Positions 40,311-62,334 of a stretch of DNA of 64,000 nucleotides are shown piece after piece. Origin of the DNA: an uncultured SAR86 cluster bacterium (GTDB lineage: Bacteria; Pseudomonadota; Gammaproteobacteria; Magnimaribacterales; D2472). The position numbers and the translations under genes are program-made. Below the pieces are notes generated by a model that had not been told where the DNA came from, ran no database searches, and saw only the letters and a list, made by a program, of their open reading frames with translations. Location of the stretch: the NCBI GenBank assembly GCA_902547295.1, contig CACCNJ010000002.1:62001-126000 (forward strand). The letters run 5' to 3'. The first letter of the stretch is position 1. Each line of letters opens with the position of its first letter.

Positions 40311-44012
<3,702 letters not shown>

Positions 44013-46484: not shown

Positions 46485-46493
46485 TGTGGATAA
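46485..46493 (-). promoter_or_regulatory. DnaA box
   Basis: TGTGGATAA on the plus strand is TTATCCACA on the minus strand, identical to the E. coli high-affinity DnaA box. It lies 75 bases upstream of the dnaA start, so it may serve replication initiation or dnaA autoregulation. Confidence 0.85.
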
Positions 46494-46586: not shown

Positions 46587-46721
46587 ATGAAGAGAACTTT
46601 TCAACCAAGCAACTTAAAAAGAAAAAGAACCCATGGTTTTCGTGCGAGAATGTCAACCAAGGCTGGAAGAGCTGTTTTATCCAACAGAAGAAAAAAGGGT
46701 AGAAAGGTTCTTAGCGCTTAA
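46587..46721 (+). CDS. rpmH: 50S ribosomal protein L34
   Basis: This 44-residue, strongly basic ribosomal protein begins [20 protein letters not shown] and ends [11 protein letters not shown], the canonical L34 sequence. It lies between dnaA (divergent) and rnpA, the universal bacterial order. A longer out-of-frame reading overlaps it and should not be confused with it. The gene is too short for many gene callers but unmistakable. Confidence 0.98.
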
Positions 46722-46722
46722 T

Positions 46723-47037
46723 TTGTCCAATTCCAATCAACAGTTTGCCTCGCTTGAGTGTTTATATTCCTGTAAATTTTTTAGAATATTTTATAAGCGA
46801 TCAAAAAATAATGGTCTTGAAATATCAATCTCGAAAAAGTTTTTTAGGCTTGCGGTTGAAAGGAATAAAACAAAAAGAAGGATAAAAGAAATTTTTAGAA
46901 AATTATCAATAGATATGCCAAAAGGAATTTTGGTTTTTTCTGTATTTAGGCCTTTTGGAGAGTTATCATATGAGGAGGCGGTGATGGAGATCTCTTCAGC
47001 CGCGAGATCTATTGCTGATAGTATGGATAAAAAATGA
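46723..47037 (+). CDS. rnpA: Ribonuclease P protein component
   Basis: RnpA is the protein subunit of RNase P, which trims the 5' ends of tRNA precursors. The diagnostic basic block KFFRLAVERNKTKRRIKEIFRK is present, followed by the family ending with AARSIADSMDKK. I place the start at the TTG at 46723, one base past the rpmH stop, giving 104 residues. The frame stays open upstream to an ATG at 46633 inside rpmH, which would give 134 residues, but the extra part ([16 protein letters not shown]) only mirrors rpmH in another frame. yidC follows with a 4-base overlap. Confidence 0.88.
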   Translation: MSNSNQQFASLECLYSCKFFRIFYKRSKNNGLEISISKKFFRLAVERNKTKRRIKEIFRKLSIDMPKGILVFSVFRPFGELSYEEAVMEISSAARSIADSMDKK

Positions 47038-48578
47038 ATATAAGAAGTTTTTATTTGGCTCTGATTGTTTTTCTTTCTTTGGCATTGTTGTATGAATGGA
47101 ACTCAGAACAAAAATCAAAATCAATTAAGCAGCACCTTGATATGGTTGGGTCTTCCTCTTATGGAGATGATGGTAGGTTTGTTTCAATTGAAAACGATGA
47201 ACTTTCGTTGGTTGTTTCAATATCTAATGGCTCTATTGTTGAGGCGAGGTTAAAAAAATATCCTGTTGAAAATGTAAGTGGTTCTATGGGATTTAGGGTG
47301 TTTGGGTCTTCAGAGTCTTCTGCGTTTCAATATTATTTTAAGAGTGGGTTTACCGGAATCACCCCGGTTTATGAGGTTTCAGAGAGGGGTGATGATTATG
47401 TGGTTTTATTAGATCCAGAGCTTGGTGTATCTAAGGAAATATCTTTTTCTGATGCTAGTTACGAAGTAAGTGTTTATGATTCAACGGCTAGTGGGGTTAG
47501 TGGAAAGTCGTTTGCGGGTTTGTATCGTTCTGAAGGAAGGGCTCTTGATTTAAAAAGAGGCGCTCTTGAGGGTGGAATGATGAACAACAGCTCTTATGAG
47601 GGTGTTGCGATAAGCACAGAACTTGACCCTTATTCTACATCGAGGTTAAGGTCGGTTGATGAGCCCCTTGAGGTTTTGTCAAAGTCTGGTTGGGTAGCTT
47701 TTGTTCAAAAATATTTCTTTGCGGCGATTATTGGGTCAGATGAATATATTTATAATTATTATGTTTTTCCAAAGGAGTCTGGGTTTTACAGAATGGGTTA
47801 TACAGTAGAGGGCTCCTCAACAAGCAACTTAGTTTATGGTCATGAGCATAGGCTGTTTATTGGCCCAAAGATTAGAAAAGATCTAATGGAAAGAGCTGAC
47901 AATTTAGAGCTAGCAATTGATATGGGTTGGTTTTGGTTTTTAGCACAACCCATGGTGTTTGTGATGGATTTTATTAATGGATATGTTAATAGTTGGGGTT
48001 TAACAATAATTATATTTACTATATTGATTAAGTTGTTGTTTTGGCCTGTTACAGCTAAAAGCTTTAAATCTATGGCTGCGTTAAGAAAAATCACTCCAGA
48101 GCTAAATGAGATAAAGGAGAGATATAAAAATGATCGCCAGACTGCTGGAACAGAAACAATGAGGCTTATGAAAAAAAATGGCGCCAACCCTCTTGGGGGG
48201 TGTTTGCCTTTATTTATTCAAATGCCTTTTTTTATAGGGTTCTTTTTTGCTCTGAGAGAAATGGTTGAGCTGAGGTTTAGTCCCTTGGTTTTTTGGACAG
48301 ACCTTTCTGCTCCCGATCCTTATTTTGTTTTACCTGCGGCGTTTGGTCTGCTTATGTTGTTAACACAAAGACTTAACCCGCAACCAGCTGGTATGGATCC
48401 TACCCAGGCGCAGGTTATGAAATATATGCCAGTAATGTTTTCAGTTTTCTTTCTGTTTTTTCCTGCCGCTCTATGTTTATACACTGTTGTCAACACGGGG
48501 GTTCAACTTTTGCAACAAACCTATTTATATAAACAGCATGGGGCTTTGGGTTCGGGTCAAGGGCCTGGTGCGTTTTAG
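47034..48578 (+). CDS. yidC: Membrane protein insertase YidC
   Basis: YidC inserts and folds inner-membrane proteins, alone or with SecYEG. The 514-residue protein has the Gram-negative layout: an N-terminal helix (about 4-20), a periplasmic beta-domain (about 40-300), then five core helices beginning FLAQPMVFVMDFINGY. The second core segment WGLTIIIFTILIKLLFWPVTAKSFKSM and the cytoplasmic hairpin with RLMKKNGANPLGGCLP are typical. Its coding strand is unusually rich in G and T, with many Val, Gly, Phe and Ser codons, shared with mnmE but not with mnmG beyond. mnmE starts 2 bases later. Confidence 0.96.
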   Translation: MNIRSFYLALIVFLSLALLYEWNSEQKSKSIKQHLDMVGSSSYGDDGRFVSIENDELSLVVSISNGSIVEARLKKYPVENVSGSMGFRVFGSSESSAFQYYFKSGFTGITPVYEVSERGDDYVVLLDPELGVSKEISFSDASYEVSVYDSTASGVSGKSFAGLYRSEGRALDLKRGALEGGMMNNSSYEGVAISTELDPYSTSRLRSVDEPLEVLSKSGWVAFVQKYFFAAIIGSDEYIYNYYVFPKESGFYRMGYTVEGSSTSNLVYGHEHRLFIGPKIRKDLMERADNLELAIDMGWFWFLAQPMVFVMDFINGYVNSWGLTIIIFTILIKLLFWPVTAKSFKSMAALRKITPELNEIKERYKNDRQTAGTETMRLMKKNGANPLGGCLPLFIQMPFFIGFFFALREMVELRFSPLVFWTDLSAPDPYFVLPAAFGLLMLLTQRLNPQPAGMDPTQAQVMKYMPVMFSVFFLFFPAALCLYTVVNTGVQLLQQTYLYKQHGALGSGQGPGAF

Positions 48579-48580
48579 TC

Positions 48581-49894
48581 GTGTCGGCGGTATTTGCTTT
48601 AGCTACACCACCAGCTAAATCAGCAATATGTGTTTTTAGGGTTTCGGGTGCTGGTTGTCATTCTGGGCTTAAAAAACTCATTAAAAATAAAGGTTTTGAA
48701 ATTGGTCGTTTTCATGTCAGGAGTTTTTATAATAAAAATGTTTTAATTGACAGGGCTGGGCTTGTTGTTTTTGAAGGTCCTAATAGTTATACCGGTGAAG
48801 ATTCTTTTGAGGTTTATGCACATGGGAGCCTTGCTGTTATGTCTTCATTTGTTTCTTTGTTTAAAAGCGTTGGTTTTGATGAGGCGGCTAGGGGTGAGTT
48901 CACTAAACGAGCTTTTTTAAATAATAAAATGAGTTTGAATGAAGCTGAGGCTTTAGGAGACCTTATAGATGCTACTGACGAGAGGGGTGTTTTGTTGTCT
49001 GGGGGTTCTTTGTTCGGTGATATGTCTTCAAGCATATCTTCTTTTGCAGATGAGATTGATCGGATTAGGGTGCGGGTAGAGGCTGAAATTGATTTTTCTG
49101 ATGAAGGTAATGAATATATGGATCGGGGGTTGGTTGATGATTTGAGCAGCCTTATAAACAGGTTTGAGTCTTTTATATCTGGATGTATTAATAAAAATAT
49201 GTTTTCTCAAAAAAATAATGTTCTTTTGGTTGGTCCTGTTAACTCGGGTAAGTCTTCTGTATTTAATAGGCTTCTGGGTTTTGAAAGGGCTATTGTTTCA
49301 AACACCCCTGGAACAACTAGAGATATTATTAGCAGTGAGCTTTTTTATGAGTCAAATGTATTTTCCATACAGGACTCTGCTGGTATAAGAGAAACTAATA
49401 ATAAAATTGAAGGCGTGGGTATTGATTTGTCTTTGTCTCAAATTAAAAGTGCGGATTTAGTAATGGGGGTTTTTGATTTGTTTGATAAGGCTTTAATCAA
49501 AAGTTTTAAGGATTTAGCAAAGAACACATCTTTTATATCTGTTCAAAATAAAACTGATATTAATAAAAAGAACTTAGAGTGTTTTGATTGTTGTGTTTCG
49601 GCTAAAACCGGTGATGGTTTTGATGATCTAAAAAAATTAATCTTATCTTCTTTTAATAAGGGTGTTAAAAAAGATGACTATAAATTTATGATAAGAGATA
49701 GGCATAATAAGTTGTTTCAGGATGTTGTTAAAAACTTAATCTCTGCTCAAAAAGGTTTAAAAGAGAATTTATCTTTGGATTTGGTTGCTGAGGACCTTAG
49801 GTTGGCAAGATCGTGTCTTGATGAGCTTGTTGGTGAAAAATTTTCTGATTCATTATTGGGAGATATATTTAGTAATTATTGTATTGGTAAATAG
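48581..49894 (+). CDS. mnmE: tRNA modification GTPase MnmE
   Basis: MnmE works with MnmG to place the aminomethyl or carboxymethylaminomethyl group on U34 of certain tRNAs. The 437-residue protein has the N-terminal tetrahydrofolate-binding domain (SAVFALATPPAKSAICVFRVSG), a helical domain carrying an inserted GTPase, and the catalytic C-terminal CIGK with Cys434. The G motifs are GPVNSGKSSVFN near 217-228, TPGTTRD near 243-249, DSAGIRE near 266-272 and NKTD. The start is a GTG with no ATG alternative. The coding strand is extremely G and T rich (20 G to 3 C in 49081-49140). Confidence 0.96.
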   Translation: MSAVFALATPPAKSAICVFRVSGAGCHSGLKKLIKNKGFEIGRFHVRSFYNKNVLIDRAGLVVFEGPNSYTGEDSFEVYAHGSLAVMSSFVSLFKSVGFDEAARGEFTKRAFLNNKMSLNEAEALGDLIDATDERGVLLSGGSLFGDMSSSISSFADEIDRIRVRVEAEIDFSDEGNEYMDRGLVDDLSSLINRFESFISGCINKNMFSQKNNVLLVGPVNSGKSSVFNRLLGFERAIVSNTPGTTRDIISSELFYESNVFSIQDSAGIRETNNKIEGVGIDLSLSQIKSADLVMGVFDLFDKALIKSFKDLAKNTSFISVQNKTDINKKNLECFDCCVSAKTGDGFDDLKKLILSSFNKGVKKDDYKFMIRDRHNKLFQDVVKNLISAQKGLKENLSLDLVAEDLRLARSCLDELVGEKFSDSLLGDIFSNYCIGK

Positions 49895-50105
49895 GTTGTT
49901 ATTTATTTGTTAATAATTTTGTATTGTTTTTTTTGCTAACAACTTGTTAAGTATTTGTTACATGTTTCTAAACAAAGCTTAACCGTTTTTATAAATTAAA
50001 AAATCCTATATAAAGAAAGGGTTTGCAGGGGTTTTTAACATAAAACGATCAACACAATAGAAATAACAAAAAGTATATAATATAGATATTAAAGTTTAAT
50101 TATTA
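49895..50105. other. AT-rich spacer at the strand-composition switch
   Basis: This 211-base gene-free stretch lies between mnmE and mnmG, the position of oriC in E. coli. The plus strand changes within it from T/G-rich (49861-49920 has 32 T, 19 A, 9 G and no C) to A-rich (50041 onwards). It contains paired TTGTTA repeats at 49896-49965 and a palindrome TAACAACTTGTTA at 49937-49949. A TATAAT at 50076-50081 could serve mnmG, without a good minus 35. I see no perfect DnaA box here. Confidence 0.6.
49896..49965 (+). repeat. Two pairs of 11-bp TTGTTA iterons
   Basis: TTGTTA begins at 49896, 49907, 49944 and 49955. The spacings are 11, 37 and 11 bases, so the copies form two tandem pairs of 11-bp units (TTGTTATTTAT, TTGTTAATAAT; TTGTTAAGTAT, TTGTTACATGT). 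A fifth, inverted copy (CTAACAA, 49936-49942) precedes the second pair and makes a palindrome with it. One-turn spacing suggests a protein-binding array, but the AT-rich background raises chance matches. Confidence 0.55.
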
Positions 50106-51950
50106 ATGAACAAATACGATGTGATAGTTGTTGGAGGTGGTCATGCCGGGGTTGAGGCAGCATACGCTGTATACAGATTAGGTATGTCATGCGCTCTTGT
50201 CACCTTTAACAAAAATGCCATAGGTCAGATGTCTTGCAATCCCGCAATTGGGGGTTTGGGTAAATCACATATAGTCAGAGAGATTGATGCTATGGGTGGC
50301 TTGATGCCAACAGCCACTGATATGTCAGGTATCCAATATAGAACACTTAATACAAGAAAAGGAGATGCGGTTCAGGCTTTAAGGGTTCAGTGTGATAGAG
50401 ATCTTTACAAAAAAGCAGTTCAAAAAATACTAAAAAAAACAAATATCGATGTATACGAAGATGAGGTTGAGGATATTTTAATTAAAAACAATAAAGTAAC
50501 CGGGGTAATAACAAGCAACCAAATCATATTAGCAAAAAGAACCATCTTAACCACAGGTACATTTTTAAACGGAAAGATGTATGTAGGAAATGAAGTAACC
50601 AAAGGTGGAAGAATGGGTGATGGAACGGCTATACCACTATCTGAAAAACTTTATTCACTAAAACTACCCATGGGAAGATTAAAAACAGGAACCCCAGCCA
50701 GGATAAAGCTTTCAAGCATTTCAACATCCTTCATGGAAGAGCAGCCCGGTGAAAAACCTACGCCATGGATGTCCCTATACAACAGACCAAAAAAACATCA
50801 AAAACAACTCTCATGCTTTATAACAAGAACCAATAAAAAAACCCATGAAATAATAAAAGAAAACACTCATTTGTCAGCTATGTATTCTGGAGATATTGTA
50901 GGAATAGGGCCCAGGTATTGCCCATCAATCGAAGACAAGGTAAATAGATTTAGTGACAAAGAAAGCCACCAAATATTTATTGAACCCGAAGGCATAAACA
51001 AAAACCTAATATATCCTAATGGAATATCAACAAGTCTGCCCAGAAGGGCACAAGAAGATTTTATACGCTCTATTAAAGGTCTCGAAGGGGCGATCATAAC
51101 CGAGTTTGGCTATGCTGTAGAGTATGATTTTGTAGACCCAAGAAACCTAAAAACATCATTAGAAACAAAGTTCCTTAACAATTTTTATTTAGCGGGACAA
51201 ATAAACGGAACAACAGGATATGAAGAAGCCGCCGCCCAAGGTTTAATAGCCGGCCTTAATGCTGTGAGATCAATTCAAAAAAAACAACCCATGGTTTTAA
51301 AAAGAAGCGAAGCATATATAGGAGTTTTAATAGACGACCTAACAACACACGGAATTACAGAGCCCTACAGAATGTTTACAAGCAGAGCAGAACACAGACT
51401 TATGCTTTCTCAAAACAACGCAGAACAAAGACTTTTAATAAAAGCGTTTAATGCTGGGCTTGTAGATGCCGAAAGAAAAAACAGTTTCACAACCAAAGAA
51501 GTGGAATATAAAGAATTCCTAGAAGCAATAAAAAAAATCAAAACAACGAAAATCATAGACAGAAAAAACAAAACACTAAAACTAAACGAAAGCAAAAACG
51601 TCTTTGAGCTTTTAAAGAGAACAGATATTGATACAACAAAAATTTTTAAACCAAAAAAGAAAGACAGAAACCTTTATAAAAGAGCCGCAACCGAATCAAA
51701 GTACATTGGCTATGTTGAAAAACAAAAAAGAGAAATTAAAAAAACACAAAAACAAAACAACAAAAAAATACCCCAAGACCTTAAGTATAACAACATACCC
51801 GGACTCTCCAACGAGGTTAAAGAAAAACTTATCAAACATAAACCCGAAACCATAGGGCACGCATCAAAAATTGAAGGCGTTACACCAGCAGCAGTAAACC
51901 TTATATTGATTCAAATAAAGAAAAAAGAAATTTTAAAACAACATGCCTAA
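50106..51950 (+). CDS. mnmG: tRNA uridine 5-carboxymethylaminomethyl modification enzyme MnmG
   Basis: This FAD-dependent partner of MnmE modifies U34 of tRNAs. The 614 residues begin with the FAD-binding motif [14 protein letters not shown] near 6-19 and contain [22 protein letters not shown] near 38-59 with the conserved cysteine. TTGTFLNG and GRMKTGTP-like [11 protein letters not shown] follow, then [11 protein letters not shown] near 272-282 with the second catalytic cysteine region. [15 protein letters not shown] is near 368-382, and a helical MnmE-binding C-terminus ends the protein. The C-terminal third is very lysine-rich, reflecting an A- and C-rich coding strand that contrasts sharply with mnmE. 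It overlaps rsmG by 8 bases. Confidence 0.96.
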
Positions 51951-52530
51951 AGTCTTTTCAGACGAACAAGAAAACAAAATAAAAACATTTATAAACCTTG
52001 CTCTAGACTTCAACAAAACCCACAACATTTTTTCAAGAGAATCCTATGACGAGGTATATGAGAACGATATTTTAGACTGCCAGCCACTAATTAATTATAT
52101 AAAAAAGAATGAAAGCGTATTAGATCTTGGTTCGGGAGGGGGCTTCCCAGGAATACTATTATCAATAATAAAACCAGAAAACAAAATAAACTTATTAGAG
52201 AGCAATAACAAGAAGTGCTATTTTCTAAAAAAAGTATCCTACGAGCTGAACCTAAAGAATACAAAAATAATTAACAAAACAATCACCAAAAAAAACAAGC
52301 TAGGCAAGTTTGACATCATTACCTCAAGAGCTTTTGCCACTATTGAAAAAACAATAAACCTCACAAAAACAAACACTCACGAAAACACAAAATACCTTTT
52401 ACTTAAAGGAAAAGCATCAAATATTAAAAAGGAGCTAAAAGATATCGACAAAAATATGCTCAGATATGAAATAATCAATCAAGATACAACAAAAGAAAGA
52501 AACATAGTTTTATTAAGCAAAGATGAATAA
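51943..52530 (+). CDS. rsmG: 16S rRNA (guanine-N7) methyltransferase RsmG
   Basis: The enzyme methylates N7 of G527 in 16S rRNA with S-adenosylmethionine. The 195-residue protein has [23 protein letters not shown] near 24-46, the SAM-binding motif [13 protein letters not shown] near 60-72, [12 protein letters not shown] near 86-97 and the SRAFA segment near 127-131. Its coding strand is strongly A and C biased (17 C to 4 G in 52321-52380). It overlaps mnmG and parA by 8 bases each, so translation of the block is coupled. Confidence 0.94.
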
Positions 52531-53284
52531 AGTAATTGCAATTGCTAACCAAAAAGGAGGGGTTGGCAAAACAACAACAGCAGTTAACCTCGCCGCAAGC
52601 CTGGCCGCAACCAAAAGAAAAGTATTATTAATAGACCTTGACCCACAAGGGAATGCCACAACCGCGGCAGGTATTAAGGAAAACGCCACCACAAACCTTT
52701 ACAACCACTACTTTGAAAATACCTCAATAGAAGACTGCGTCTATGAAAGCAGCGACGGTTATAAAATTATACCTGGAGGAGAGGAGCTCATTGCCCTCGA
52801 AATAGCAATAAGAAATGATAACAAACAAGGTTTCATGTCTAAAAGCTTAGAACCAATTTCTCAAAACTATGACTATACAATTATTGATACACCCCCGACC
52901 CTAAACCAACTTACTATCGAGGGTTTGTTTTGTGCCTCTGGAACGCTTATCCCACTTCAGTGCGAATATTACTCACTCGAAGGAGTAACAGGGCTTATGA
53001 ATACTATTGAAACAATATCAAACAAAAATATGTCATCAAACAGGATCCTTGGGATAGTAAGAACAATGGTGGATATGAGAAACAACCTTGCAAAAGAGGT
53101 TTCTGATGAGCTTGAAAAACACTTTGAAAGCTTGGTGTTTAATACCCTTATTCCCAGAAATGTAAAACTGGCCGAGGCCCCAAGTCATGGAATATCTGGT
53201 ATAAAATACAAACCAGATTCTTATGGAGCAAGAGCATATTTAGCGCTAGCAGGAGAGCTTATTAGAAAGGTGGAGTATGTCTGA
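52523..53284 (+). CDS. parA: Chromosome partitioning ATPase ParA (Soj)
   Basis: ParA binds DNA in its ATP form and moves ParB-parS complexes to segregate origins. The 253-residue protein begins with the deviant Walker A QKGGVGKTTTAVNLAA near 8-23, then LLIDLDPQGNATTAAG near 35-50, the Walker B-like YTIIDTPPTLNQLTIEGL near 113-130 and the C-terminal PRNVKLAEAPSHGI near 212-225. The lack of an N-terminal extension marks the chromosomal Soj type. It overlaps rsmG and parB by 8 bases each. A matching parS is in recF. Confidence 0.96.
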   Translation: MNKVIAIANQKGGVGKTTTAVNLAASLAATKRKVLLIDLDPQGNATTAAGIKENATTNLYNHYFENTSIEDCVYESSDGYKIIPGGEELIALEIAIRNDNKQGFMSKSLEPISQNYDYTIIDTPPTLNQLTIEGLFCASGTLIPLQCEYYSLEGVTGLMNTIETISNKNMSSNRILGIVRTMVDMRNNLAKEVSDELEKHFESLVFNTLIPRNVKLAEAPSHGISGIKYKPDSYGARAYLALAGELIRKVEYV

Positions 53285-54002
53285 AGAAAATAAAACACTA
53301 AACAAGGGACTAGATGCGCTTTTGGGACAATCTAATACCAACCAAAGATCTGTAAAAGAAATAGAAATATCAAAAATTAAACCAGGTAGGTTTCAACCAA
53401 GATCAAACTTTGATAATGAAAAGCTTCAGGAATTAACTGAATCGATAAAAAAACAAGGAGTTCTTTCACCCATTTTAGTCAGAGAGCTTGGTCTTAATGA
53501 GTATGAGGTTATTGCTGGCGAGAGAAGGTTAAGATCATCAAAAATGGCGGGACTATTAACGATACCTTGTTTGGTAGATCAAAAAAAAGATCAAGACGCC
53601 CTTGTGTCGGCCCTTATAGAGAACCTTCAAAGAGAAGACCTTAATCCTGTTGAAGAGGCAAGAGGTCTTGATAGACTAAAAAGAGAGTTTGGACTTACAC
53701 AAGACGAAGTGGCGTCTTCAACAGGCAAAGCAAGAAGCACAATAGCCAACTCACTTAGAATATTATCTTTACCAACATCGGTTCTTGATTTGCTTTCAGA
53801 GGGAAAAATTGAAAAGGGACATGCAAAACTTTTAGCATCAATGCCACCCTCTGATGCGGAAAAAATGGCAAGAAAAATAATTAAGGAAAGATTGACCGTA
53901 AAAGATCTCAGTAACGTTTCTTTAAAAAAACAAATCCAAAAACTCACCAAAATCCAAACAAAAAGATACCGATATGTTGAATATAGAACAAGAGATGTCT
54001 GA
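53277..54002 (+). CDS. parB: Chromosome partitioning protein ParB, frameshifted before its C-terminal domain
   Basis: ParB is a CTP-dependent clamp that loads at parS and spreads along DNA. This frame encodes the N-terminal ParB/Srx CTPase region (RFQPRSNFD near 39-47, GVLSPILVR near 62-70, EVIAGERRLRSSKMAG near 78-93, ENLQREDLNPVEEA near 114-127). The helix-turn-helix follows (LTQDEVASSTGKARSTIANSLRIL) to about residue 215. It then ends RYRYVEYRTRDV, which is not ParB-like. The proper dimerisation domain continues in the plus-one frame from about 53926 to 54117. One A fewer in the A7 run at 53924-53930 would restore a full protein of about 279 residues. It could be a sequencing error, a real mutation or slippage. 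Confidence 0.9.
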   Translation: MSEENKTLNKGLDALLGQSNTNQRSVKEIEISKIKPGRFQPRSNFDNEKLQELTESIKKQGVLSPILVRELGLNEYEVIAGERRLRSSKMAGLLTIPCLVDQKKDQDALVSALIENLQREDLNPVEEARGLDRLKREFGLTQDEVASSTGKARSTIANSLRILSLPTSVLDLLSEGKIEKGHAKLLASMPPSDAEKMARKIIKERLTVKDLSNVSLKKQIQKLTKIQTKRYRYVEYRTRDV

Positions 54003-54117
54003 ATCATTTGGACATAAGGTTGAAATAGAAACCAAGAATAAAAAATCTGGAAAAGTAACTATTTTTTACAAAAGTCTTGATGAACTTGATAATATTATTG
54101 CAAAGATAAAAAAATAA
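53926..54117 (+). pseudogene. parB: Displaced C-terminal dimerisation domain of ParB
   Basis: In the frame one base ahead of parB, an open stretch from the A7 run encodes a lysine-rich linker (SKQKDTD) followed by MLNIEQEMSESFGHKVEIE and then GKVTIFYKSLDELDNIIAKIKK. This is the typical ParB C-terminal leucine-zipper domain, which normally ends in a Y-x-S-LDEL helix. It has no own gene start with a ribosome binding site, although an ATG at 53974 is available. It belongs to parB and shows that the upstream frame is interrupted rather than naturally short. Confidence 0.85.
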
Positions 54118-54129
54118 CTGACAAACAAC

Positions 54130-54158
54130 TTGTTTATCAATGATTATGTTTCTATAAT
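54130..54158 (+). promoter_or_regulatory. Promoter of the atp operon
   Basis: TTGTTT at 54130-54135 and a perfect TATAAT at 54153-54158 are separated by exactly 17 bases, a good sigma-70 pattern. It lies 42 bases before atpI and 12 bases after the restored end of parB. It is the best promoter match I found. Confidence 0.7.
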
Positions 54159-54200
54159 TCTCGCCAGAAAAAATATATAAATATATCCCAAAGCCTGAGT

Positions 54201-55429
<1,229 letters not shown>

Positions 55430-60978: not shown

Positions 60979-62334
60979 GTGAAAATTCATACTGTAATTC
61001 TAGCTGCTGGAGAGGGCTCTAGAATGTTATCAAACAAAGCAAAATCTCTTCAACCTGTTGGCGGACTTTCAATGCTAAGGCGCATTTATGATACTGTTTC
61101 AAATTTAACAGACGAAACTTCTTTTGTAGTTGGTTTCGAAAAAGATTCTGTGACTAATGAAATAGAAAAATTTTCTGGAATAAATCATATTTGTCAACAA
61201 AAAAAGCCAATCGGCACTGCAGATGCAGTGAAATCTGCACTAGACTCCATAAAACAAAACTCAAAGGTTTTAGTCTTATATGGCGATGTTCCCTTAATAA
61301 AAAAAGGAACACTTAATAATCTAATTTCAATGACAGATGACAGCCTAACGATTTTGAGCACAGAACTTAAAGATCCAACTGGCTATGGAAGAGTGAAAAA
61401 AAACGAAAATGGATTGGCAATATCAATAGTTGAGGAAAAAGATGCGTCTGAGGAAGATAAAAAGATAAAAGAAATTTTTACAGGGATACTTTGTTGTAAT
61501 AAAAAATTACTTGAAGAGGCAATAAATGAAGTAAATAACGATAATGCTGCATCAGAGTTCTATTTAACAGATATTGTTTCTATAATAAATACAAAAGGGT
61601 TTAGAATTAATACATGTATTGTCCCCAATGATGAAGTAAAGGGGGCAAATACAAAAGAAGAATTGTCAGAGTTAGAGGGAATATATAGAGAAATGAAAGC
61701 AAACGAGCTATTAAATATGGGCATAACTATATCTGATCCATCTAGAATTGACGTCAGAGGAGATGTTTCAGCTGGCAAAGATTGTTTTATTGACGTAAAT
61801 GTAATTTTGGAGGGTAATGTATCATTAGGCAATAACGTGTCTATAGGCCCAAATACAATTTTAAAAGACGTTGAGATTGGAGATAATTCAAAAATTGAGG
61901 CTTTTTCTCATTTAGTATCATCAAAAGTCGGGAATAATTGTTCTATTGGCCCATATGCAAGATTAAGAGAGGGTAGTCATATAGACGATTCAGCAAAAAT
62001 AGGAAATTTTGTTGAAACTAAAAAAACAAAAGTTGGTAAAGAGTCTAAAGCTAATCATTTTGCATATCTAGGAGATGCTGATATTGGTAGTGACTCCAAT
62101 ATAGGAGCAGGAACAATTACATGTAATTATGATGGCAAGGAAAAACATCAAACAAAGATTGGAGATAACAGCTTTGTTGGAACAAACTCATCACTAGTTG
62201 CACCGGTAACAATTGGCTCAAATGCTTATGTTGCAGCAGGATCTGTAATTACAAAAGATGTTCCTGATAATGCTCTAGGTGTAGGAAGGGCAAAGCAAAA
62301 TAACAAAGAAAATTGGTCTAAAAAGAAGGGCTAA
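60979..62334 (+). CDS. glmU: Bifunctional GlmU: GlcN-1-P acetyltransferase / GlcNAc-1-P uridylyltransferase
   Basis: GlmU acetylates glucosamine-1-phosphate and then makes UDP-GlcNAc for peptidoglycan and lipopolysaccharide. The 451 residues contain an N-terminal nucleotidyltransferase domain (VILAAGEGSRMLS near 5-17, QKKPIGTADAV near 75-85, LYGDVPLIK near 99-107). A C-terminal left-handed beta-helix follows with many hexapeptide repeats and FVETKKTKVGKESKANHFAYLGD near 338-360, which includes the acetyl-CoA site residues. The start is a GTG. It follows the atp operon and precedes glmS, the standard pairing for amino-sugar synthesis. Confidence 0.96.
   Translation: MKIHTVILAAGEGSRMLSNKAKSLQPVGGLSMLRRIYDTVSNLTDETSFVVGFEKDSVTNEIEKFSGINHICQQKKPIGTADAVKSALDSIKQNSKVLVLYGDVPLIKKGTLNNLISMTDDSLTILSTELKDPTGYGRVKKNENGLAISIVEEKDASEEDKKIKEIFTGILCCNKKLLEEAINEVNNDNAASEFYLTDIVSIINTKGFRINTCIVPNDEVKGANTKEELSELEGIYREMKANELLNMGITISDPSRIDVRGDVSAGKDCFIDVNVILEGNVSLGNNVSIGPNTILKDVEIGDNSKIEAFSHLVSSKVGNNCSIGPYARLREGSHIDDSAKIGNFVETKKTKVGKESKANHFAYLGDADIGSDSNIGAGTITCNYDGKEKHQTKIGDNSFVGTNSSLVAPVTIGSNAYVAAGSVITKDVPDNALGVGRAKQNNKENWSKKKG

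Follow-up and report, generated by a model that had tools for sequence, protein, structure and literature searches.

A zone of reversed strand asymmetry around the mnmE–mnmG spacer of SAR86-order bacteria and its possible link to replication initiation

Introduction

At a bacterial origin it is hard to observe the site and manner in which the first leading strands are started, or the time for which their template stays uncoupled. Here we describe a short zone of reversed strand asymmetry, centred on the spacer between mnmE and mnmG, in a 64,000-nucleotide stretch of DNA from an uncultured SAR86 cluster bacterium (hereafter the window: positions 62,001 to 126,000 of contig CACCNJ010000002.1). 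The zone was seen in every evaluable SAR86-order genome examined and is probably a replication-linked strand asymmetry. We put it at slightly short of an even chance that the zone is the footprint of oriC at the mnmE–mnmG spacer, with the first 3–4 kb of the leading strands copied late, in an uncoupled manner or by a different polymerase.

The closest described systems share some properties with this locus and differ in others. In the ordinary oriC skew, typified by E. coli, G and T are more frequent in the leading strand to either side of the origin. The SAR86 zone also has a sign change of keto (G+T) bias at an origin, here a probable one. However, its sign within 3–4 kb is the opposite, and almost no bias is found beyond. 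In animal mitochondrial DNA, strand asymmetry accompanies strand-displacement replication (PMC3269012). There, too, one of the strands is depleted in A and C and enriched in G and T, whereas the locus analyzed here has two short mirror tracts about one bacterial point and lacks a clear C>T asymmetry. In P. aeruginosa deficient in mismatch repair (MMR), A and C mutate most as lagging-strand template (PMC4702332). The A>G asymmetry and the lack of MMR (here, none was detected) are common to both cases; yet in P. aeruginosa the asymmetry spans whole replichores in reciprocal fashion and A mutates on the lagging template, while ours is local and affects the presumed leading template. Finally, the layout described for origin unwinding consists of a DnaA box, a spacer whose length peaks at 10–13 bp, and trios with the consensus 3'-GAT-5' and a conserved middle adenine (PMC8287927). 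The mnmE–mnmG spacer resembles this bacterial origin unwinding module (BUS) in having a DnaA-box-like sequence, 12–13 nt and a trio-like repeat, here with an AT-rich stretch next. It differs in that the module is predicted from sequence, the box of the window is degenerate and the middle adenine is kept just in the first trio-like triplets. A search of open-access titles and abstract openings, which left subscription journals mostly outside, found no earlier description of a local zone of reversed skew at a bacterial origin.

Strand bias in the window

The reversal of strand bias around 50 kb is real and strong. In a 1-kb profile, GC skew is +0.19 to +0.36 and AT skew is negative at 46.5–50.0 kb, while at 50.0–53.5 kb AT skew is +0.24 to +0.42 and GC skew +0.08 to −0.16. 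Keto bases occupy 71% (303/426) of the 4-fold degenerate sites in rnpA, yidC and mnmE on the left, 34% (134/398) in mnmG, rsmG and parA on the right, and 51% (426/833) in six atp genes. The left and right sets, all on the plus strand, differ with chi-square 114 (p ~1e-26). On the coding (plus) strand, C makes up 7–18% of 2-fold pyrimidine sites in rnpA, yidC and mnmE, 47–58% in mnmG, rsmG and parA and 18–31% in the atp genes; the G share of 2-fold purine sites is 30–44% on the left and 17–27% on the right. Inside the mnmE–mnmG spacer, keto skew is positive from −225 to −75 relative to mnmG, negative from −75 to −25 and positive again in the last 25 bases.

An earlier note, made from the letters of the window, had reported a zone of reversed, extreme asymmetry centred near 50.0 kb. 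The zone was borne out at synonymous sites, and the base counts given there for six blocks (starting at 49081, 49861, 51721, 52321, 52681 and 45961) proved exact when recomputed. The note was also right that coding direction is not the cause, since neighbouring plus-strand genes have opposite bias at synonymous sites, third positions included. The genes, presumably correctly named from their translations and from general knowledge of these protein families, and the parts of the zone are as follows.

Minus strand: gyrB, recF, dnaN, dnaA
Plus strand, following these: rpmH, rnpA, yidC, mnmE, mnmG, rsmG, parA, parB and the atp operon
46870..50030, plus strand: left half-zone, G- and T-rich plus strand at synonymous sites (rnpA, yidC, mnmE)
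50030..50400, no strand assigned: flip region, comprising the end of the mnmE–mnmG spacer and the start of mnmG, where the first 250 bp of mnmG have almost no residual skew
50400..53130, plus strand: right half-zone core, A- and C-rich plus strand (mnmG, rsmG, parA)
53130..54500, plus strand: right taper (parB, atpI)

Codon use shifts in the expected sense for 16 of 18 amino acids on the left (the exceptions are Asn and Ile) and for 15 of 18 on the right (Glu, Leu and Arg being the exceptions). As most codon families shift, no single amino acid accounts for the bias, and such an effect is ruled out. Protein composition follows the skew, as the earlier note had claimed: Phe and Ser are higher on the left, and Lys, Asn and Thr on the right. 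Such a shift might also come from selection, unlinked to replication, that acts on codon use or on the operon's proteins. However, most codon families move together and in opposite senses in neighbouring co-directional genes, the spacer sequence carries the bias as well, and other gammaproteobacteria with mnmE beside mnmG have no such bias. We therefore consider selection an improbable explanation. As a separate observation, MnmE is less conserved than MnmG across SAR86 families (mostly 28–39% versus 44–54% identity in the longer matches from the three families other than that of the window). Exposure linked to transcription, through R-loops or a long antisense transcript, has even less to recommend it. 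The left half alone would suit exposure of the non-template strand, but the co-directional right half is biased the other way and there is little bias in the atp operon. The opposite signs in co-directional genes rule out transcription as the cause.

The extent of the zone was taken from the mean profile of 21 genomes of the window's family (19–21 per bin), in which residuals relative to flanking genes were computed in 250-bp bins. The residual keeps to a plateau (+0.19 to +0.46) between −3.25 and about −0.25 kb, is close to zero at 0 to +0.25 kb from the mnmG start, and stays at −0.18 to −0.41 from +0.25 to +3.0 kb, after which a noisy tail reaches about +4.5 kb. A step fits best when it extends from about −3.2 to +3.0 kb and has its flip ~0.2 kb inside mnmG, which in the window corresponds to ~46.9–53.1 kb with the flip at 50.0–50.4 kb. 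In this average, no consistent opposite bias was found beyond −3.5 or +4.5 kb, where single bins scatter from −0.18 to +0.25; dnaA itself is mixed. That the flip site is the mnmE–mnmG spacer or the start of mnmG is well supported. At the right-hand end, parB lies within the zone in some relatives and outside it in others, mostly outside in the window's own clade.

Distribution among genomes

The assembly containing the window (1.05 Mb in 23 contigs, 77% complete) was compared with relatives by tblastn of the window proteins. The gene order is conserved in 40 relatives as far as their contigs extend, giving 41 loci of the order. The window's family (f1) is represented by 21 genomes, that is, the window and 20 relatives, from genera g1–g3 only. 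Three other families of the order (f2–f4) contribute 20 loci, of which 18 were scored because L103 and L117 lie near contig ends and could not be evaluated. The 23 control loci comprise L040, L074, E. coli K-12 and 20 other gammaproteobacteria picked for long contigs among 183 that matched in a class-wide search.

As a flip score we used the mean residual over the 3 kb to the left of the mnmG start minus that over the 3 kb to the right. It is +0.46 to +0.73 in all 21 f1 genomes and +0.08 to +0.40, always positive, in the 18 evaluable f2–f4 genomes, so that the flip is present in 39 of 39 evaluable members of the order. The same signs are found gene by gene in L037 and L038, two more named SAR86 loci (mnmE +0.34 and +0.68; mnmG −0.19 and −0.26). 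By comparison, the 20 gammaproteobacterial controls score −0.16 to +0.07, and those with mnmE directly or nearly beside mnmG (L213, L218, L222, L225, L231) score −0.05 to +0.02. E. coli K-12, whose annotated oriC adjoins mnmG, has −0.17, i.e. the ordinary polarity. Since the controls are near zero, a general trait of gammaproteobacteria or of AT-rich genomes is ruled out, and confinement of the feature to the SAR86 order among the genomes examined is well supported. A weak, one-sided form occurs in L040 and L074, other gammaproteobacteria with the same gene order (flip scores +0.12 and +0.09), which have low G at purine sites on the right.

A first look at mnmG alone in 30 loci of the class gave keto values of −0.37 to +0.26. 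The two most negative belong to the GC-rich L149 and L150, where mnmE is out of reach and there is consequently no flip score. Within the order, the mnmE query matched 149 and the mnmG query 138 of 151 genomes (E≤0.001), some of the mnmE matches being weak and probably other GTPases. By-eye comparison of the listed places, made without a count, finds the two genes adjacent in order genomes.

The distribution also bears on an assembly join or a past inversion at 50 kb. Nothing was found in its favour; the same gene order and the same sign of the flip in 39 evaluable, separately assembled genomes in effect refute it, and we assign it a negligible probability. The past rearrangement offered as a cause in the earlier note is accordingly unsupported.

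Whole-chromosome context

A closed, single-contig relative of 1.23 Mb (G034), all but 16 kb of which was covered, places the zone in the context of a complete chromosome. The score at the mnmE–mnmG spacer is 0.538, compared with a standard deviation of 0.057 over 2400 positions and a next non-adjacent maximum of 0.185, so that no other flip on the chromosome is as strong. Farther than 5 kb out, leading- and lagging-strand genes differ by only ~0.01 (+0.001 to +0.016 in ten distance bins, sides pooled). In G034, therefore, synonymous sites have hardly any strand bias outside the zone, compared with ~0.2–0.35 inside it. There is no tail of bias along the chromosome beyond 5 kb, nor bias along whole replichores of the kind associated with replication errors in MMR-deficient cells. 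The polarity of dnaA and the atp operon, which the earlier note had regarded as that expected of departing forks, turned out to be mostly coding-strand bias.

The mnmE–mnmG spacer as a candidate origin

The bias is symmetric about the mnmE–mnmG spacer, which adjoins mnmG as does E. coli oriC. The spacer is 211 bp long in the window (214 counting the mnmE stop codon) and 189–266 in relatives. Its elements, together with the DnaA box outside it, are listed below.

49895..50105, no strand assigned: mnmE–mnmG spacer, proposed oriC
50032..50040, plus strand: degenerate DnaA-box-like TTTTTAACA; relatives have TTATTAACA, TTATCCACA and TTATGCACA
50054..50068, plus strand: trio-like element after a 13-nt spacer from the box; relatives have CTAATAATAA and CTAATAGAAATAACA
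50069..50105, plus strand: AT-rich candidate unwinding element, for the most part conserved within the genus
46485..46493, minus strand: DnaA box TTATCCACA in the dnaA–rpmH spacer

We defined a module as the DnaA-box-like 9-mer TTATNNACA (at most one mismatch), 12–13 nt and a CTAATA-like trio element. It is found in 29 of 41 spacers (19/21 in f1, 6/6 in f4, 3/6 in f2 and 1/8 in f3), compared with 157 of 8200 shuffled spacers and with 100 matches on both strands of all loci (1.52 million bases, spacers included). A looser scan made earlier was uninformative, matching 35 of 41 spacers and also 972 of 2050 shuffles. The DnaA box is exact in L117 and L110, has one mismatch in others and is degenerate in the window. 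Taken together with the symmetry of the bias, these data support the zone centre as the probable replication origin. An Rfam search of 44–56 kb of the window gave no matches, and a parS scan of the window gave a single match (one mismatch, at 42946), with 0.53 matches of up to three mismatches expected by chance.

The same boxes can be read differently. Two origins, one in the dnaA–rpmH spacer and the other near parB–atpB, might both fire, with their forks meeting at 50 kb, and the zone would then be the ordinary lagging-template bias of inward forks. This would agree with the plateau-like profile, with the TTATCCACA box close to the left edge, and with two TTTTCCACA matches (54596 and 55335) shortly beyond the right edge. 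Of the 20 family loci that extend to the dnaA–rpmH box, 19 have an exact copy. We read this box as dnaA regulation, but should there be a rival origin at the left edge, it is the strongest candidate. A and C mutating most on the lagging template in MMR-deficient P. aeruginosa (PMC4702332) would fit inward forks as well. However, the opposite bias that multiple origins would leave past the edges is not consistently present, ordinary forks leave ~0.01 in G034 as compared with ~0.2–0.35 in the zone, and the recurring origin-like module sits at the centre. Moreover, looser DnaA-box matches (TTWTNCACA) in the window are not above chance (9 versus 12 expected); those near the zone are at 48814, 54596 and 55335. 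Two start points, one of the causes suggested in the earlier note, are therefore disfavoured, and we regard them as unlikely.

Substitution patterns and repair genes

Recent changes are asymmetric too. Parsimony in five close groups with outgroups, counting changes per ancestral site, gave A>G 20.4% versus T>C 11.9% on the left and the mirror image on the right (T>C 21.8% versus A>G 8.6%), while the flanks follow the coding strand (T>C 14.7% versus ~9%). C>T shows no clear asymmetry (left, C>T 41% versus G>A 33%; right, 31% versus 30%). We also fitted a non-reversible maximum likelihood (ML) model on a shared tree to 229 left, 300 right and 1052 flank sites; its estimates carry no confidence limits and its deep branches are saturated. 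On the left, it gave A>G 0.364, T>C 0.245, A>T 0.286 and T>A 0.078, with the expected rise of A>G over the flanks. The corresponding values are 0.134, 0.378, 0.030 and 0.289 on the right and 0.203, 0.412, 0.273 and 0.311 in the flanks (coding). The A>T and T>A values mirror each other between the two sides. Parsimony and ML disagree on the right-hand rates of change; what both share is that A is lost, in relative terms, from the plus strand on the left and the minus strand on the right.

Scaled tree lengths are 18.3 for the left, 14.3 for the right and 14.2 for the flanks, that is, 1.29 and 1.01 times the flanks. With the total rate so slightly changed, the process redistributes changes more than it adds them, which speaks for a different copying mode and not for heavy damage. 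A raised mutation rate is not consistently seen: 4-fold divergence exceeds that of the flanks for yidC and mnmE in the window versus L084–L086, but not regularly in ten pairs.

Repair genes were sought with hidden Markov models (HMMs) in nine genomes: seven of the SAR86 order in 1–2 contigs each (G034, G015, G011, G037, G039, G041, G044) and two controls (G107, G213). MutS had no match in any of the seven, and MutL had none in six, with two sub-cut-off fragments in the remaining one; a missing HMM match is not proof of absence. Both proteins were found in G107 and neither was detected in G213. Dam had no match in any of the nine genomes, all of which have full-length Pol I. In the seven SAR86-order genomes RecB gave just helicase-like partial matches and none of full length, in a search that did not cover AddAB or RecQ/RecJ.

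Some of these results bear on the idea that a double-strand break recurs at the centre, or a nick stays unjoined there, and that resection or nick translation proceeds outward for 3–4 kb, so that 3'-ended strands are exposed and refilled with errors. The same strand polarity would be expected. Pol I, which can nick-translate (PMC11253446), is present throughout, and there are papers on break repair and strand-coordinated mutation clusters (PMC6786661, PMC3521656). Against such a break stand the undetected full-length RecB, the little raised rate and the lack of any open frame of at least 60 residues wholly inside the spacer of the window. We consider it quite unlikely.

A possible footprint of replication initiation

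For this polarity to arise, the part of each strand that lies 5' of the centre must be treated differently for 3–4 kb. Four mechanisms would have this effect: a late or uncoupled leading-strand start, a different polymerase for the first tract, break resection and inward forks. The first two, taken as one class, are those we favour. If the centre is the origin, the strands losing A (plus on the left, minus on the right) are leading-strand templates.

Initiation could then proceed as follows. DnaA would open the AT-rich stretch in the mnmE–mnmG spacer, and two helicases would depart. Over the first 3–4 kb, copying of the leading-strand template would differ from that elsewhere on the chromosome, in that it would be late, not coupled to the helicase, or carried out by another polymerase (nick translation starting at leading-strand 5' ends included). 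Relative to its complement, this template would lose A and, less clearly, C. Farther out, the coupled fork would treat both strands alike. With no detectable MutS or full MutL, polymerase errors would persist and composition would reach equilibrium. Both the special copying mode and its enzyme are inferred from the pattern. The idea of leading-template exposure at the opening origin, put forward in the earlier note, survives in part: special treatment of that template fits the polarity best, whereas simple cytosine deamination in single-stranded DNA fits poorly, because C>T is not clearly asymmetric and the total rate is close to that of the flanks.

A number of observations weigh against an initiation footprint at the spacer. 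The step profile beats linear decay, though weakly (Akaike information criterion −296 for the step, −290 for linear and −278 for exponential decay, with bins that are not independent); a gradient would have backed exposure better. The module pattern was chosen after seeing the spacers and the genomes are related, making the contrast with shuffles descriptive, and just one of eight f3 genomes has the module. The window's own spacer box is degenerate; its only TTATCCACA lies 3.6 kb off at dnaA–rpmH, near the left edge, and the two DnaA-box-like matches lie just right of the zone. In the ML estimates, right-hand T>C and T>A do not exceed the flanks (A>G and A>T are lowered instead), the T>C excess there runs the same way as the coding bias of the flanks, and the total rate of the right half is not raised. 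In G034, the cumulative GC skew has its maximum at 594 kb, about opposite the spacer, but its minimum is near 110 kb, away from the spacer. Gene orientation can displace this walk, since leading-strand genes contain just 52% of the synonymous sites found up to 100 kb from the spacer. Finally, G213 (locus L222), negative for MutS and MutL and with mnmE beside mnmG, has no flip; MMR loss is thus not sufficient, and as the sole cause it is ruled out.

With these points taken into account, it is a tentative proposal that in the SAR86 order, where no complete MMR was detected, the normally invisible leading-strand start-up at oriC, late or by another polymerase over 3–4 kb, has been written into base composition as a fossil of initiation. 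If the zone is an initiation footprint, its length would measure the start-up tract in nature, and the SAR86 origin would be located to within a few hundred bases and be comparable across clades. The composition of SAR86 MnmE and MnmG would be partly mutation-driven. Skew-based origin finders meet a reversed signal at this SAR86 locus.

Two minor features of the window concern genes in or beside the zone. The window parB (53277–54130) encodes 241 aa, with an early stop at a poly-A stretch and the usual C-terminus in another frame, compared with 279 aa in four of four relatives checked; this is perhaps a sequencing error, or possibly real. In yidC and mnmE (47034–49894), the window is near L083 (8% and 5% of 4-fold sites differ) and far from L084–L086 (28–35%), while in other genes of the latter pairs 0–25% of such sites differ. 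The pattern looks as if a block had been swapped by recombination beside the presumed origin.

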